This document shows, one piece after another, positions 991-59,640 of a stretch of DNA of 64,000 nucleotides. The notes beneath the pieces were generated by a model that saw only the letters and a list, made by a program, of their open reading frames with translations, ran no database searches and was not told the origin of the DNA. The first letter of the stretch is position 1. The number at the start of each line of letters is the position of its first letter. The position numbers were made by a program, and so were the translations under genes. Origin of the DNA: Corallium rubrum (Eukaryota > Cnidaria > Anthozoa > Scleralcyonacea > Coralliidae); the NCBI GenBank assembly GCA_964035015.1, contig OZ036010.1, positions 7,508,173-7,572,172 of the forward strand, given 5' to 3'.

Positions 991-1178
991 AACAACAATC
1001 GAAATATAGTAAGGTTAGACATACTACCGAAACAGAGAACGTAGGAGTCTAACGTTTCGAGTGAAGGCCCTTCGTCAGAACAACGTTTCTCTCTGACGAA
1101 GGGCCTTCGCTCGAAACGTTAGACTCCTACGTTCTCTGTTTCGGCAGTATATCTAACCTTACTATGTTTCGTTTGTGT
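991..1178. repeat. Palindromic element with two opposed hammerhead-like motifs
   Basis: Left and right arms are inverted copies around 1080 (ATAGTAAGGTTAGA... on the left, TCTAACCTTACTAT on the right). Each arm contains CUGACGA, a stem and GAAACGUU. Related copies lie at 47165-47287 and 54733-55045. Confidence 0.7.
1093..1121 (+). ncRNA. Hammerhead-like ribozyme motif, type B
   Basis: CTGACGA at 1093-1099 is followed by an extra A, a GGGC/GCTC stem II with one G-U pair, GAAA at 1113-1116 and CGTT, then AGA which can pair with TCT before the core. Stem III could only be the self-complementary ACGT, as in dimer-type hammerheads. A second copy lies on the minus strand at 1055-1078. Confidence 0.4.
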
Positions 1179-2115: not shown

Positions 2116-16248
<14,133 letters not shown>

Positions 16249-26643: not shown

Positions 26644-26682
26644 CTGAAGATGTTACTGGTTAAGTAACGAAACGTCAGTAAA
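26644..26682 (+). ncRNA. Hammerhead-like ribozyme motif, type C
   Basis: CTGAAGA (26644-26650), an extra T, a perfect GTTAC/GTAAC stem II, GAAA (26669-26672), CGTC and then AGT that can pair with ACT before the core. ACGT is self-complementary, and GTC is the preferred hammerhead cleavage triplet. Confidence 0.42.
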
Positions 26683-27345: not shown

Positions 27346-28212
27346 ATGATAGCCCAGCAAATAGCTTTGAGTAAAGGCATATTAGACACATAATATTTTT
27401 AAAGAAAATTTTAATACTAACGTTTCGTTAAGACACGTAACATCATCAGAGTGATAATATTTACAAAGTAAGATCGGCTTAAAGTGTCCCTAACCCCAAA
27501 TATTTTTTTTAAAAAAATCAAATTAGTGGTTTGTTGAGTACCTCAGTCCAAAAATGTTTTGATTTGGATGAATTCTCGAGTTTCTGTGCCCTGTTGAAAT
27601 GTTAATGAGGAAAACCTAGGTGTGAGTCGAGGTGAGATGTCGAGAAAGTGGGAGAAGTAAGATAAAGAGAAAAAAAAAATTAAAAAAAAATTAAATAAAA
27701 AGCCCAGAACTGAAAAAGTGTCAAAGGGAAAGATCGAATGTTAACATTAAGAGATGGATTCATTTTAGCAATGAGAAGGCTCTCGAAGAAGAAGAACTTC
27801 GAGTGCTGAAGAAGCAGAGGTTAAAATTGAAATCAAAAGAAACTTCATGACCAGTTGACTTAGTGTGTGCGAGAACGCTAGATAATTGTGTGTGTGAGAG
27901 GCTTTCCTGTGTAGGCCAAAACACTCATATGATCCGAGATTCTCGTGTGTAAAAGACGGCAAGTTTCGCCTATATACGACGCCTCGTATATAGGCGAAAC
28001 TTGGCAGCCTCACACCTAGGTTTTCCTCATTAACAATTCTCATTAACACATTCCTTTCTCACACCTCATCATCTTCTATTTATGTAACAGTTTTGCTACT
28101 TAAGCCGATCTTACTTTGTAAATATTATCACTCTGATGATGTTACGTGTCGTAATAAAAATATTATGTGTCTAATATGCTTTTACTCAAAGCTATTTGCT
28201 GGGCTATCATAT
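27346..28212. mobile_element. Nested palindromic element
   Basis: Outer arms 27346-27483 and 28101-28212 are inverted copies (GATAGCCCAGCAAATAGCTT and its complement; AAGTAAGATCGGCTTAA and its complement). Inside, AATGAGGAAAACCTAGGTGT and ACACCTAGGTTTTCCTCATT form a second inverted pair (27602-28030). Confidence 0.7.
27418..27449 (-). ncRNA. Hammerhead-like ribozyme motif, type C, minus strand
   Basis: On the minus strand: CTGATGA, extra T, GTTA/TAAC stem II, GAAACGTT, AGT pairing with ACT before the core. The opposite arm at 28133 keeps CTGATGATGTTACGTGTC but has lost the GAAA. Confidence 0.38.
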
Positions 28213-36394: not shown

Positions 36395-36513
36395 ATGTAT
36401 TAATTACGTGAGCCAACAACTTGTTGTCATTGCTCTGACGAAGGCCTGAGTCAACAGGCCGAAAGCTTAGCAAAGAAATATTTTACGTGGTGTTTCCACA
36501 AACTTATTTATAT
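36395..36513 (+). mobile_element. Element fragment with a type A hammerhead-like motif
   Basis: Matches the right half of the 12303-12500 element. CTGACGA (36435-36441), extra A, perfect GGCCTG/CAGGCC stem II, GAAA (36461-36464), GCTT and AGCAA that pairs with TTGCT before the core. This is the best preserved copy. Confidence 0.5.
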
Positions 36514-36593
36514 TACAGCCATGTATTATTAATTATTCTATTTATTACATAAAAATAGTTGTATTTCCCCACAAAAGTAGAGCAGTAAATTCC

Positions 36594-36816: not shown

Positions 36817-38099
<1,283 letters not shown>

Positions 38100-39414
38100 T
38101 TTAGTTAAAGTGTATTGCAAAAAAAAAAAAACCCACAAGACTTGTAATAGATCGGACATATTTTTAAAGAAAAATAGAAAATTGTAAAGTGATGTTTTGG
38201 AGAGACCATTCAACCCTGGCTTACACTTCCATTGTTATTGGGGGATAACCTTTTACTCTGTCTAACACCAAATGATTTTGCCCGTCAAAGGAAAACGTTT
38301 CGAAAAGCCATAGGCATGCATAGGGCAAAAGGTTAAACACATTGTTGAGTACAGGGGGGAAAGAGTTATACCAATTTTAAAGCTAGGATTGGCTCATCTG
38401 GACAATTTAAAGAGATAGAGAAGCTCATGACCGAATAATGCCGACCTACCTGCCCTTGGAGAACCTCAGACTATAATCATTGGAACACTCAAAGCTATGA
38501 TATCCTCAACTCCTTGCTAGTTCACTTCAATGTTGAAAAGTTCCATGCGTTTAGACCTTTTGCAGCTGATGAAAAGTAAAAATTTCATTACTGAACAACA
38601 TTTAATCAACTTTTAATTGAGCAGCAGTGTTTTGACCTTATTCGAATTTAACCTTTTTTTCTTTTACTTTCGATTAACCTCGTTACACCGTGGCACGATA
38701 GACTAAATTTCCCCATAATAAAACTTATTATACAGATGCGAGTGTTTTACTAGGAAATATACAGTGTCGTATTTTCCATATCCTCCCTAGTGAAGATATC
38801 GATGACGTCATTTAGAATTTTACCGCTTTTTGCATTGAATCTATATAATAAAAAGAACATTACACGGTGGCTTGAAGATAGGAATTTTATCTTCTCGTGG
38901 CAAAAACAATATCTTACTCATTCGCTACGCTCATTCGTAAAATATCGTTTTCCCCCACTCAAAGATAAAATTCATATCTTCATGCCGCCGTTCTATATAC
39001 AAGACACAAGTGTCAAGCCTATGACATTTTACACATATAGTCGAAATCAGCTCTAATTCTTCTGGCGGGGCATTGTCACAAACTCACAGTATAGGCTACA
39101 GCATATATACACACATATGGCTGGAGGAAAACTAGCTATTCTAAAGATTTTCACATTTTCACTTTTTTTATACTAAAAACGTAGTATCCTTGTAGCTGGA
39201 GAAACGTGATCACATGCATGCATATATACAATCACTTCAAGACACTAGCTATAGTTCAAGAGTCAATTGAAAGAAACTAGATGTTTCGTACTTCTCTTTA
39301 CAATTCGATGAAAACTGACGTGGATTATGAGGAATTATTTAATATAATCAACTCCAATGAAATTGAATGAAAATGTTGACACGCTATTTTTACTATTTCT
39401 TTTTTGTCACACTG
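38100..39414. other. No supported gene
   Basis: AT-rich sequence with a short TCTAACACCAAATGATTTTG fragment of a repeat also seen near 46050 and 56290. Nothing else was recognised. Confidence 0.4.
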
Positions 39415-39712
39415 CTAAGTTACAATGCGCACGATACAGTTACGACAATGCGCACGATACAATAGTACAATACAATGCGAACGATATATAAAGTAGTACA
39501 ATGCGCATGATGTAGTAGTGCAATGCGCACGATACAGTAGTACAATGCGCACGATACACTCGGTAGTACAATGCACAAGATGCAGTAGTGCAATGCGCAA
39601 GGTACAGCAGTGACGATGCACAAGATACAGTAGTGCAATGCGCAAGATACTATATCTTAATTGCGCATTGCACTACTGTAGTACAATGCGCACGATATAT
39701 TAAGTAGTAAAA
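39415..39712. repeat. Satellite, left block
   Basis: Copies of TACAATGCGCACGATACAGT in variable 20-26 base units, ending in an inverted stretch at 39655-39680. Confidence 0.85.
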
Positions 39713-40093
39713 GGGAGCACGGGTGGCGTGTGCTGTTAGCGCGTTGCCTCTCACCAAAAAGTTAAGCCCGGTTAGATGGGGTTAGTACTTGGGTGGGTGA
39801 CCGCTTGGGAATTACCCCATTGTCGGGCTTGGACTCATGTGAGTAGAGTTGTAGTTGATCTCTCCTGTGCTTCGAGGGTTTTTCGCCGGGTTCTCCGGTT
39901 TTCCTCCCTCCATAAAATCAACACCTAACATCTTAGCTGTGATCCGTGGTCTGAACTGTGTCGTTGCGGCTGCTTCGAGCGCCTTTGATATGCCTCGACA
40001 CGGCCACGTTAATAATCTGCGTCCTTCGCAATTCAGCCGCTGGCTGCAAGTAAGGATGATTAGCCACCCAGTCCTTTATCCCTTTATCCCTTG
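39713..40093 (+). mobile_element. 5S-rRNA-derived SINE-like element
   Basis: The part 39761-39832 resembles the 3' two thirds of a 5S rRNA gene, including box C: GGTTAGTACTTGGGTGGGTG, then ACCGCTTGGGAAT. The start (GGGTGGCGTGTGCTGTTAGC) looks like a tRNA box A region. About 250 bases of non-RNA tail follow. A 5S head with an unrelated tail is the plan of SINE3-type elements. It is not a functional 5S gene because the first third is missing. Confidence 0.7.
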
Positions 40094-41939: not shown

Positions 41940-42232
41940 CCGATAGCAGGGTGGCCGTGTCGAGGCATATCAAAGGCGCTCCAGGCAGCCGCCACCACGG
42001 ATCACATCTAAGATGTTGGGTGTTGATTTCATGGAGGGAGGAAAACCGGAGAGCCCGGCAAAAAACCCTCGAAGCACAGGAGAGGTCAACTACAACTCTA
42101 CTCACATGAGTCCAAGCCCGACAATGGGGTAATTCCCAAGCGGTCACCCATCCAAGTACTAACCCCATCTAACCGGGCTTAACTTTTTGGTGAGAGGCAG
42201 CGCGCTAACAGCACACGCCACCCGTGCTCCCT
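41940..42232 (-). mobile_element. Second 5S-derived SINE-like element, inverted
   Basis: Inverted copy of 39713-40093: CCAAGCGGTCACCCATCCAA and AGTACTAACCCC are the complement of box C at about 42135-42165. It differs from the first copy in its tail and in several substitutions. Confidence 0.7.
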
Positions 42233-42345
42233 TTTACTACTTAATATATCGTGCGCATTGTACTACTATATCTTAATTGCGCATTGCACTACTGTATCTT
42301 GCGCATTGCACTACTGCATCTTGTGCATTGTACTACCGAGTACAT
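42233..42345. repeat. Satellite, right block
   Basis: The same satellite words as 39600-39712 but inverted (TGCGCATTGCACTACTG), so SINE and satellite together form large inverted arms. Confidence 0.85.
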
Positions 42346-42360
42346 ATACACATACACTAG

Positions 42361-42612
42361 ATGAAGTACAGCGCTATTTCGGCGAGGAAACAGTCGACTC
42401 TTAATTTTTCTGGCAAAAATGTTTTGCCCCTCCCCCCCAAACGTAACTGGTCAGGTACGCCTATTGGGGAAGAGTCGTCACTCTTAGCCAGCGACAAGCA
42501 ATACTTCACTCGAAGAACAAGGGAGTTTATTGAGATTGCAAACCATCACACTATTTCTCAGGAAGGACAGCCATTAAACAGCATGTGGTGTGCCCTTGAT
42601 TTTGTTTTCTAA
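42361..42612 (+). pseudogene. Possible retroelement ORF tail
   Basis: An 83-codon frame ends RRTREFIEIANHHTISQEGQ and a few residues more. The TREFIEI...N..G pattern weakly resembles the C-terminal end of GIY-YIG ORFs in Penelope-like elements. A type A hammerhead-like motif follows about 100 bases later. The assignment is uncertain; the upstream part of the frame is not recognised. Confidence 0.3.
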
Positions 42613-42664
42613 TTAATAAAATTAACGTGATACGCCATTGTATTCTTACGTGATTTAATTGATC

Positions 42665-42796
42665 AGTTGCTTAGTTTATAAATGACGTGAGCCAACAACT
42701 TGTTGTCATTGCTCTGATGAAGGCCTGAGTCAACAGGTCGAAAGCTTAATAAAGAAATATTTTACGTGGTGTTTCCACAAAACTTATTTATCTATA
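42665..42796 (+). mobile_element. Element fragment with a type A hammerhead-like motif
   Basis: CTGATGA (42714-42720), extra A, stem II GGCCTG/CAGGTC with a G-U pair, GAAA (42740-42743), GCTT, then the repeat end ACGTGGTGTTTCCACAAAA. Stem I is weaker here (AATAA in place of AGCAA). Confidence 0.45.
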
Positions 42797-52229: not shown

Positions 52230-52372
52230 GGAGCCGCTGCATGACTGTTTAGTTGTCAGTTTATAAATTATGACGTACAGACGTAAGCTGTTGGTATTTG
52301 CTCTGATGAAGGCCTGAGTCAACAGGTCGAAAGTTCAGTAATAAATTATAAACGTGGTGTTACCACAAATTC
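52230..52372 (+). mobile_element. Element fragment with a type A hammerhead-like motif
   Basis: CTGATGA (52303-52309), extra A, GGCCTG/CAGGTC stem II, GAAA (52329-52332), GTTC then AGTAA. Stem I pairs with TTGCT through a U-G wobble, a pairing-preserving change. The end reads ACGTGGTGTTACCACAAAT. Confidence 0.45.
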
Positions 52373-54732: not shown

Positions 54733-55045
54733 ATACAAATCGAAATATAGTTATGAGGTTGTATATACTGCCGAAACATGAAACGTATTGCTGGTGTGCA
54801 TCTTACGTCATTGCCGCCATGTTGGTTGACGATTTCAGAAGATTTTCATCATCTGCAATTATAATATCATCCAACATGGCGAAAATATCTTTGTCCTTCG
54901 AATCTCAAGGGATTGGTTGCACACAACCTATAGAAGTCTAACGTTTCGGGCGAATTTTCTCTCTGACGAAGGGCCTTCGCTCGAAACGTTAGACTTCTAC
55001 GTTCCATGTTTCAGCAATATATCCAAACTTACTATATTTCGATTT
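54733..55045. mobile_element. Palindrome of the 991-1178 family with an insert
   Basis: Outer arms AAATCGAAATATAGT and ACTATATTTCGATTTGTG are inverted. An extra 140 bases (54787-54930), itself partly inverted around CGCCATGTTGG and CCAACATGGCG, separate the arms. Confidence 0.65.
54963..54991 (+). ncRNA. Hammerhead-like ribozyme motif, type B
   Basis: The same core as at 1093: CTGACGA (54963-54969), extra A, GGGC/GCTC stem II, GAAA (54983-54986), CGTT and AGA pairing with TCT before the core. Confidence 0.4.
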
Positions 55046-56739: not shown

Positions 56740-58000
56740 CAAGTGATACTATGGAATTGTTTGTTGCTGAAGATTGTAACGGTGCATATCCTATTAAATC
56801 CTGTTTTAAGTATTAAAAGCGCCACCTATGGTCACTGCATGGAGACAGGAAATCTAGCCTTTATATATATACAGATATTTTCTTATGCTCTAATTTCAAC
56901 CTTCTTTGCCAGTCAGATTATCAAAAAAGCTTAAAAGTGAACTGCCAGGGTGTTATCTAGAAAGGATACGTTCGAAGCTAAACCTCTTATCAGAGATAAG
57001 GAATTCCAATTCCCTGTAGGATTATTTCGTAAGGGAATAAACGTGGTGTTACCACAAATTCTCGCTTGTATTATTTATTTTCATATATGTAGTATAGGTT
57101 TATGCTTTGTTTGGTTAGTTCATACTGACTGTAGTAGGTATATTAGTTGAACGAGCTACCCTTTGTAAATAGAGGTGTATATCTACATTTCACATGCATT
57201 CACCTTCTTAAAGCCTTTTTATCCGTAGTAAGTCGTAACACGCTGTCTGTGCTGTATTTACATGTACGCCATAACACCAGACGGTTTTACTGCACAAAAG
57301 AAACGTGTTGGGAGGTAAAGGATGAAAAGATTGTGAATTCAAGACGATTTTTTTAGTTCATTTTGGATGTCGTAATCTTTTAAGACTGATTTGTATTTTG
57401 AAAAGTAGTGGGCCCCGGAAATTGCGCCCAGAACTTGAGGCAAAGCTGGATCCTTATATGTAGATATACGCGCGTGTGTGCATACTCAGACTTTTTTCAA
57501 ATCCTAGTGTTGAACATAAGATTTAATAGTTTTTCTGTGTGATCTATCGTGATGTATACACTATAAAATGTATAGCATGGTTTTTAAATGGCCCAAGATT
57601 TAAAATGTTTTGAGAAGCGCAGGTAATTCTATAGGGATTGCGAGTATCTGACTTTCTACACAAGTGACAGTGGAAGTGTCCAAGTCGGTTTTCCACTTGC
57701 GAATAAATTTGCGCGATACCAGTTGGGGGGGGGGGGGGGGGGGTATACGAGCTCTCGGCTGGAACTAATTAGAAATCTAATCAATTTTTTACAATAGAAA
57801 TGTCGATATGCGAAAGTCAAACAAACCAGCGCAAGTCTGTATTAGCAGGCTAGCTTGGGGTCTTCATTAAGGGCAGGTCTTCAATAATATAGATATCGTT
57901 AGAAAGCTATTAATTTGTGGAATTGATTTTGCGATAAACACAAGCCAAATTTTTGCAAGTAAATTAAAACCAGAGGACTTCGCTCGGGGCGACTTAAGGG
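56740..58000. other. No supported gene
   Basis: A short AACGTGGTGTTACCACAAAT repeat end lies at 57040-57060 and a poly-G run at 57726-57742. No exon was recognised. Confidence 0.4.
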
Positions 58001-58514: not shown

Positions 58515-59640
58515 CATAGTAGCCCAAGCACAATGTGTGATTCTATTTTATAATTGATTTACTTTTTATGGCATAGAAATGCATACTCTTTAATAGCATG
58601 TTAAGATCAATATGTAAATATATGACTTGTTCATTTGACCATAAAATTGAGCAGTGTTTTAATAATGTAAATAAATATACATTTAAATCTACATTACCCC
58701 CTGCTGTGTTCACCTCGCTTAACCGTCGGATAAACATTGTTATATTACTATTTTTACCGTAAAATATACAGGAAAATCAAATTTACTGTTCAGACTAACT
58801 GCTTACTTAATATACCATGTAAGAGGGAAAATTCACACATATACTTACAACTGTGAATGTGTGAATTTTCCCTCTTACATGGTATATTAAGTAAGCAGTT
58901 AGTCTGAACAGTAAATTTGATTTTCCTGTATATTTTACCGTAAAAATATAGTAATATAACAATGTTTATCCAACGGTTAAGCGAGGTGAACACAGCAGGG
59001 GGTAATGTAGATTTAAATGTATATTTATTTATATTATTAAAACACTGCTCAATCAGGGGCGTCGGAAGCGGGGGGCCCCGGGGAGGGGCCTGCCCCCCCC
59101 TCCCCACTTTTTTTTTTTGGGGGGGGGGGGCAGAATATGTTTGGGCCCCCCCCCCCCCCCCCCCACTTTTTAACAAGGCCAGTAATAAACAAGGCCAGTA
59201 ATAAATTTATGATTAACAAAATCACTAACCCTAGCTAACCCACGACTTTGAATAAGGATATAATAAAGAAATTTGAATGCAGATATTCAATGTCCGGAAA
59301 AGTGTTGTCTTTTGAGTATTTTATGACGTTTTTCGACCTTTAGAATTCTGTAATCCATGTCCAAAAATGCAGGAAATGGCATTTCAGAGACTCTAGATTT
59401 CAAAATTTCCCGGGGGAGCATGCCCCCGGATCCCCCTAAAAAATTTGGGCCCCCCCACTTTTAGTGTCGCTCCGACGCCACTGTGCTCAATTTTATGGTC
59501 AAATGAACAAGTCATATATTTACATATTGATCTTATGAAAGAGGGTATGAACAGTTACATGCTATTAAACAGTATGCATTTCTATGCCACAAAAAATAAA
59601 TCAATTATAAAATAGAATCACACATTGTGCTTGGGCTACC
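58515..59640. mobile_element. Large palindromic element, right arm split by a hAT-type insertion
   Basis: Arms of about 340 bases centred near 58850: GTGAATTTTCCCTCTTACAT and its complement flank the centre, and ACAATGTGTGATTCTATTTT pairs with AAAATAGAATCACACATTGT at the outer ends. The right arm is interrupted at 59054-59483. Confidence 0.82.
59054..59483. mobile_element. Non-autonomous hAT-type transposon with 8-bp target duplication
   Basis: Ends CAGGGGCGTCGGAAGC and GCTCCGACGCCACTG are near-inverted. TGCTCAAT directly flanks both sides (59046-59053 and 59484-59491), and removing the element restores the palindrome arm. An 8-bp duplication and CAG...CTG ends are typical of hAT. The inner part is G/C-homopolymer rich. 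Confidence 0.85.

Follow-up and report, generated by a model that had tools for sequence, protein, structure and literature searches.

Minimal hammerhead-like motifs in the pLTRs of a Penelope-like element of Corallium rubrum and an excess of 5' junctions at their predicted cut

The window analysed here, a stretch of 64,000 nucleotides from the red coral Corallium rubrum, contains four copies of a short motif that the initial annotation had read as a family of hammerhead-like ribozymes. This raises the question whether the motifs are hammerheads, what element carries them and whether their cleavage has left traces in the genome. All four copies are found where they had been placed (12426, 36435, 42714 and 52303, plus strand) and share CTGAYGA (with T or C as the variable base), GGCCTG and GAAA; the hammerhead core CUGANGA ... 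GAAA ... H17 is present in each. Their consensus reads TTGCT / CTGAYGA / A / GGCCTG / six-base loop / CAGRYC / GAA / AGYT / H / ARYAA. In the family A copy at 36430..36473 (+), stem I is formed by TTGCT and AGCAA, the core CTGACGA is followed by an inserted A (36442), stem II is GGCCTG/CAGGCC, and GAA leads into the stem III strand AGCT (36464-36467) and H17, which is T36468; the predicted cut lies between 36468 and 36469. The other two family A copies, at 12421..12464 (+) and 42709..42752 (+), close stem II with CAGACC (one C-A mismatch) and CAGGTC (G-U), and their predicted cuts lie between 12459 and 12460 and between 42747 and 42748, respectively; stem I of the latter uses AATAA, again with one C-A mismatch. 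The fourth copy, at 52298..52341 (+), was assigned to a diverged subfamily B in an alignment of 25 rows that included it. It has AGTT in stem III, C52336 as H17, AGTAA in stem I and a predicted cut between 52336 and 52337. The usual form of subfamily B is AGCT, then C as H17, then AGCAA. A U at H17, as in family A, is a poor cleavage base.

The structure originally described holds in part. AGCU, attributed to every copy, is the stem III strand of three, while 52303 carries AGUU, which is self-complementary only through two G-U pairs. Stem II has its six pairs in three copies, the C-A mismatch of 12426 having gone unmentioned. AGCAA, said to pair with TTGCT, occurs in two of the four, but TTGCT has a downstream partner in all of them, and the AGTAA of 52303 does pair through G-U as described. 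The C-to-U change in stem II exists, but is located at 42738 and 52327, two bases off the assigned 42740 and 52329. That the differences keep the pairing is true of the G-U cases, but not of stem II of 12426 and stem I of 42714. With C-A mismatches in two copies, the four alone are weak evidence for the variation expected of a folded RNA, for which the class-level covariation reported below speaks instead. The palindromic setting was recovered for 12426 (arms 12303-12349 and 12453-12499), but its inverted partner is decayed (CTAATGA). Taken as a whole, the original observation is partly confirmed.

The suggested check against the Rfam hammerhead models turned out negative: release 15 reported none of the four window copies even at E 10, and no hammerhead was obtained for these motifs in the window (gathering score and E 10) or in nine loci (E 10). 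We disregarded a match of Hammerhead_HH10 at 58776 (E 0.58), which coincides with a long palindrome. By contrast with resampled sequence, the window is rich in a generic form of the motif (CTGANGA, A or T, a stem II of 4 bp or more, GAAA, stem III strand and H): it has seven matches, whereas 100 resamplings under a first-order Markov model produced one in total. Three of the four copies are among the seven (12426 is missing because of its stem II mismatch), and the others belong to other families.

We then turned to the whole genome of 474 Mb. The exact 23-nt core has 2,186 genomic copies versus none for the reversed pattern. The core-only pattern CTGANGAN{8,26}SGAAACGTH gave 12,201 matches versus 88 reversed controls, CTGAAGAN{8,26}CGAAACGTH gave 1,898 versus 8, and CTGANGAN{8,26}SGAAARSYTH, which covers the R-S-Y-T forms, gave 2,942 versus 129. 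Since the core-only patterns fix core letters and not stems, testing the stems among their matches does not presuppose pairing; H17, on the other hand, is built into the patterns, and its generality is therefore not an independent result. The 100 listed places of the 12,201-match pattern comprise 39 distinct strings, 22 of which allow four or more pairs in stem II with one unpaired nucleotide after CTGANGA, compared to one string with no and none with two unpaired nucleotides; 1,000 shuffles of these strings gave a mean of 0.9 and a maximum of 4.

A larger sample with flanks consisted of 52 short loci, hand-picked from the listings for distinct strings, which together with the window and the loci L030 and L091 yielded 68 distinct rows. 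Among the 57 distinct inner sequences of this sample, 37 reach a stem II of 4 bp or more if one nucleotide is inserted, and not one does if the number inserted is zero or two; dealing the 3' strands among the families gave a mean of 11.9 and a maximum of 21 in 5,000 shuffles. Stem I has at least 3 bp in 31 of 48 distinct contexts (mean 12.0 and maximum 22 in 20,000 shuffles), and because the families are related, none of these shuffle figures is a probability. The first pair of stem I is T-A in 36 of the 48; C-G, A-T, G-C and T-G were also seen, and six are unpaired. Among 14 sequences of equal length, 96.4% of the cells are paired (83.8% after shuffling), 18 cells show two-sided change (6.2 after shuffling), and neither value nor the covariation score was reached in any of 500 shuffles. 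Two of the five measures applied to this alignment did not favour structure, namely the number of pairs with two-sided change (236/500) and of further pair types (500/500). On the sequence comparison, covariation of stems I and II above background across the hammerhead-like families of this genome is supported. The covariance check proposed earlier thus succeeds at the class level only, because the family A copies themselves differ too little. A lower substitution rate in the motif (∼0.003 versus 0.017-0.026 per site in the flanks; 49 copies, 14 distinct) was not used, because a tolerance for the motif had guided the choice of copies and because truncation affects the flanks.

Canonical hammerheads have stem II abutting on A9. 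The motifs studied here do not; one nucleotide is inserted, which is A in all four window copies. The initial annotation had listed this extra A as a departure, which is correct, but it is not peculiar to these copies, since an inserted A or U is found in most of the sampled families (A or T in 54 of the 57 distinct inner sequences, G in three). The form with inserted C or G followed by G gave 102 matches versus 5 in the control, many of which look like decayed A/T forms. The (+) hammerhead of chrysanthemum chlorotic mottle viroid (CChMVd) is similar in that an extra A10 is tolerated at the same place, between A9 and G10.1; A10U cleaves three to four times faster, whereas A10C and A10G are badly impaired, so that there, too, A or U is accepted as the one extra nucleotide (PMC3705267). 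The difference is that this hammerhead belongs to a viroid, in an unrelated setting, and that its loops 1 and 2 interact.

What carries the motif? A protein search gave at least 65 matches, and ten of 30 loci that we cut out contain an uninterrupted frame of 701-834 amino acids. At L009, a 705-aa ORF is followed by the hammerhead motif and preceded by an inverted copy of it. Its protein, the only one scanned, matches Pfam RVT_1 above the cut-off (E 4.7e-9), and its last 174 amino acids, scanned alone, match GIY-YIG (E 7e-5; 23.5 bits at a curated cut-off of 22.6), a domain that the Pfam scan of the whole 705-aa protein did not list even at E 10. A search of PDB sequences with the PLE protein gave no match at E 0.01, and a predicted structure of the endonuclease end was set aside at a mean pLDDT of 49. 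At L030, L031 and L035, an uninterrupted ORF lies between two direct pseudo-LTRs (pLTRs), with the motifs 2592-2594 nt apart; L038 has the same direct arrangement but a broken ORF, which brings the direct tandems to four of the 30 loci. One end of the element is often extended by a 35-nt tail (TTACTTTATCGCCATGAAAACG...). The features of a Penelope-like element (PLE) are therefore present: reverse transcriptase (RT) and GIY-YIG in one ORF (L009), direct and/or inverted pLTRs, and an optional tail. Among the 100 listed places of the 23-nt core, 28 pairs of neighbours lie less than 5 kb apart, and 24 of these pairs face outward, which is explained by motifs sitting in the repeats of a retroelement. 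Judged by sequence and arrangement, the motif-bearing repeats are the pLTRs of a PLE. Similar pLTRs, with an inverted 5' pLTR and an optional 31-bp tail, have been described for Penelope of Adineta vaga (PMC3846280), and in the Anolis PLE the tail corresponds to the sequence that separates two RT start sites (PMC11167929).

All four window copies fall into the pLTR of the L030 unit by BLAST. The 36435 motif lies in a truncated pLTR (36398..36516, +; 96% identity), 12426 in a pLTR with tail (12378..12545, +; 93-94%), which is joined head to head to a decayed inverted copy (12291-12381, -; 77%), 42714 in the longest pLTR stretch of the window (42467..42791, +; 90%), and 52303 in the diverged subfamily B fragment (52251..52369, +; 77%). 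With this homology and the covariation of stems I and II across families, the annotated reading as minimal, dimer-type PLE hammerheads is supported. Two further stretches carry pLTR sequence without the ribozyme: in 14353..14396 (+), pLTR homology starts 2 nt past the predicted cut position, and 10768..10838 (+) is a pLTR end plus tail lacking the core. A fragment at 57041-57070 (+) resembles the 3' end of subfamily B (ACGTGGTGTTACCACAAATTCTCGCTTG), also without ribozyme. Near the (AG)n run that follows the 36435 copy, a long RT frame at 36818-38104 (-; Pfam RVT_1, E 5.4e-21) probably represents a non-LTR element.

The window also contains other elements and hammerhead-like families. A different PLE-like element at 2740-5515 consists of two head-to-head truncated copies, the arms of which are 99% complementary; GIY-YIG was found in it only below the cut-off (17.3 bits). 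By eye, it appears to have a minimal hammerhead of its own at 2766-2808 (-) and 5447-5489 (+), with stem I TCTGC/GCAGA, CTGAAGA, a stem II of U-U plus 3 bp, GAA, the near-palindromic ACAGCCTGT and A as H17; a stem II with a basal U-U mismatch has been described for an axolotl hammerhead (PMC7229834). Elements of this type form head-to-tail arrays with a period of ∼2.4 kb elsewhere in the genome (G000 C116:67634-85788, C9:1127876-1136227 and C20:448556-469590), and a few array members lie inside listed open frames of 2,118-2,222 aa that span units. The abundant hammerhead-like family CTGACGAAGGGCCTTCGCTCGAAACGTT↓AGACTCC occurs at 1051-1078 (-), 1093-1120 (+) and 54963-54990 (+), the stretch 995-1176 being a head-to-head pair of it, and a U-inserted class (CTGAWGAT-GTTAC...) with stem I ACT/AGT is found at 26644-26676 (+) and 27419-27449 (-). 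Inverted arms at 39678-39950 and 41994-42266, 97% complementary, surround a 22/26-bp tandem array; they show sub-threshold matches to 5S rRNA (Rfam, 30.9 and 29.1 bits, gathering 38) and are perhaps a 5S-derived SINE. Finally, the frames at 2061-2441 and 6136-6627 (+) encode von Willebrand factor A domains (Pfam VWA, E 2.7e-15 and 1.1e-15), and those at 11510-11875 and 15805-16248 resemble them in appearance.

Minimal PLE hammerheads as a class lack loop-loop contacts. Such minimal type I hammerheads (Cervera & de la Pena 2014; Lunse, Weinberg & Breaker 2017), as summarised in PMC7761336, PMC6155905 and PMC7229834, resemble the motifs described here in their location in pLTRs, their core, the very short, dimer-suited stem III and their thousands of copies in metazoans. 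Family A differs in having AGCU in stem III, whereas in this genome ACGU is the more frequent strand. Of the more than 6,000 type I motifs reported for Acropora millepora, only 1,508 are canonical (PMC7229834). The element itself resembles Penelope/Poseidon elements (the Adineta vaga families, Anolis PAc and Drosophila virilis Penelope), which share the pLTR-ORF-pLTR tandems, the inverted 5' pLTR, the optional tail of 30-40 bp and the combination of RT and GIY-YIG (PMC3846280, PMC11167929). Metazoan non-LTR retrozymes also carry type I hammerheads in repeats, but are 170-400 nt RNAs from non-coding tandem repeats with canonical hammerheads (PMC7229834); with a coding unit of 2594 nt and a minimal ribozyme, we rejected this assignment.

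The stem III strand is ACGT or AGCT in 56 of the 57 distinct inner sequences, a choice restricted by the search patterns. A double hammerhead formed through the self-complementary AGCU has fully nested pairs. The computed energies do not favour the dimer, the stem III of which is only 4 bp long, over two monomers: values are -30.9 versus -32.0 kcal/mol for 36435 and -13.6 versus -22.2 kcal/mol for 52303. Dimer cleavage would therefore need help from a protein or the closeness of two motifs in tandem transcripts. This would be in line with Anolis, for which protein-assisted cleavage has been reported: in vitro, PAc cleavage requires protein, and mutation of the ribozyme has no effect on insertion; RNA-seq gave no reads beginning or ending at the cut (PMC11167929).

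To look for a trace of cleavage, we determined where the homology of genomic copies begins. With a genome-wide pattern, 192 copies start at -4 to +3 of the predicted cut GCUU↓AGCAA, compared to 53 junctions in a control window of equal width upstream (-26 to -19) and 128 downstream (+9 to +16). The downstream count is only 1.5-fold lower, and the three windows use different 21-base anchors, the counts not being normalised by anchor copy number. The 100 listed of the 192 cut junctions fall into 91 distinct 100-bp bins and are distributed, from -4 to +3, as 4, 11, 21, 15, 28, 6, 6 and 9, with uniform expectations of 16.7, four times 12.5, 12.3, 11.7 and 9.4. Thus, 64 of the 100 listed start at -2 to 0, where 37.5 would be expected if uniform (chi-square p 7e-7, eight bins). 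Because of the T-rich context upstream of these junctions, some cases at -1 and -2 are probably starts at 0 preceded by a chance T. Upstream, the 53 junctions show no peak (6, 4, 7, 8, 3, 10, 7, 8). The 100 listed downstream junctions are uneven (5 at +9, 9 at +10, 11 at +11, 38 at +12, 5 at +14, 8 at +15 and 24 at +16) and lie over a T-run with a wildcard base. Some of the cut junctions are perfect head-to-head pairs (ATTTCTTTGCT joined to AGCAAAGAAAT).

Low numbers upstream, a peak at the cut and intermediate numbers downstream are what is expected from a fixed RNA 5' end combined with ordinary 5' truncation. This junction excess at the predicted cut suggests cleavage in vivo. An earlier look at 55 pLTR copies from the fetched loci and the window had revealed a few junctions near the cut, in a sample biased by the choice of loci. 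For family G (ACGTT↓AGACTCC), the junction pattern gave 124 matches. Removal of 43 of the 100 listed, which were internal deletions or intact cores shifted by indels, left 57, and 35 of these lie at -2 to 0. Unfiltered, 48 of the 100 listed are at -2 to 0 and 33 at +3, the latter largely a recurrent deletion form, so that this test is confounded by recurrent deletions and also by repeated upstream contexts. The portions of the Penelope/Poseidon papers covered here (PMC3846280, PMC11167929) do not report junctions at the ribozyme cut, nor did the covered parts of the wider PLE literature state such a footprint. The footprint is the new part of these results; the class of minimal PLE hammerheads is already known.

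The anatomy of the motif, the pLTR-ORF-pLTR tandems at a few loci, the tail, the class-level covariation and the 5' junction excess can all be read from the genome. As a whole, they are best explained by a minimal type I hammerhead in the pLTR of a PLE, with putative steps of dimer cleavage and reverse transcription, a reading to which we assign a probability of roughly 85%. A double hammerhead would arise by pairing between the AGCU strands of two motifs, acting in trans or, across a single 2.6-kb unit, in cis. It would cleave after H17 (GCUU↓AGCAA) and release an RNA with its 5' end 58 nt upstream of the ORF ATG (L030). Reverse transcription of the freed RNA would begin in the next pLTR, at sites ∼46 or 80 nt beyond the cut, and the downstream ribozyme of the template would accordingly stay uncut. 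cDNAs reaching the 5' end of the RNA would stop at the cut, and head-to-head joining of copies at this end would produce palindromes of the sort that the genome contains. We extend this only tentatively, at somewhat less than even odds, to the notion that animal-type PLE hammerheads form a class with one inserted A or U at the position of the viroid A10 and a palindromic four-base stem III, that they cut in vivo, and that genomic 5' ends, including head-to-head palindromes, are footprints of RNA 5' ends made by the ribozyme.

The motif could instead be a hammerhead by descent, the cleavage of which is unused in transposition, and which is kept mainly as an RNA structure or binding site of the PLE protein near the RT starts. 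This would agree with the Anolis PLE, where ribozyme mutants insert normally and cleavage needs protein (PMC11167929), and with copy 3' ends ∼46-80 nt past the cut (L030 coordinates), which imply that the downstream ribozyme of the template remained uncut. A binding site, however, would not require the exact hammerhead core, and the 5' junctions peak at the predicted cut; we therefore regard unused cleavage as unlikely, if the most serious competitor. The junctions might also reflect a transcription start that coincides with the predicted cut base, since any fixed RNA 5' end predicts the identical signature, and a putative TATA box and initiator have been described in the Adineta vaga pLTR (PMC3846280). 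But the start would have to be located exactly at the ribozyme cut, and family G, with a different sequence, also has junctions at -2 to 0. The latter argument is weak because both sites read TT↓AG, and we consider a coincident start quite improbable.

Two further explanations are less likely still. The outward orientation of 24 of the 28 close neighbours (<5 kb, among 100 listed places) could suggest a DNA transposon or MITE with terminal inverted repeats and a palindrome at the DNA level, but because of the enclosed ORF with RT and GIY-YIG and the direct tandem loci we rejected such a reading of the inverted pairs; 5' truncation at many places and the one-sided tail also argue against it, leaving it a very small probability. 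A chance resemblance to hammerheads inside an ordinary repeat would account for the missing Rfam match. Given the covariation across families and core-only counts more than 100-fold above the reversed controls, it is the least credible of all and close to negligible.

The hammerhead in the PLE pLTR thus remains the favoured reading, and the junctions bear on what it does. What PLE hammerheads do for their element, and whether they are active in it, has been called 'still a mystery' in one review (PMC7761336). If genomic copies begin at the cut, cleavage would make the 5' end of the template, which would be testable from genome sequence alone in any PLE-bearing species. Head-to-head palindromes of PLE insertions have been read as self-priming (PMC3846280); the junction footprint could also account for them.
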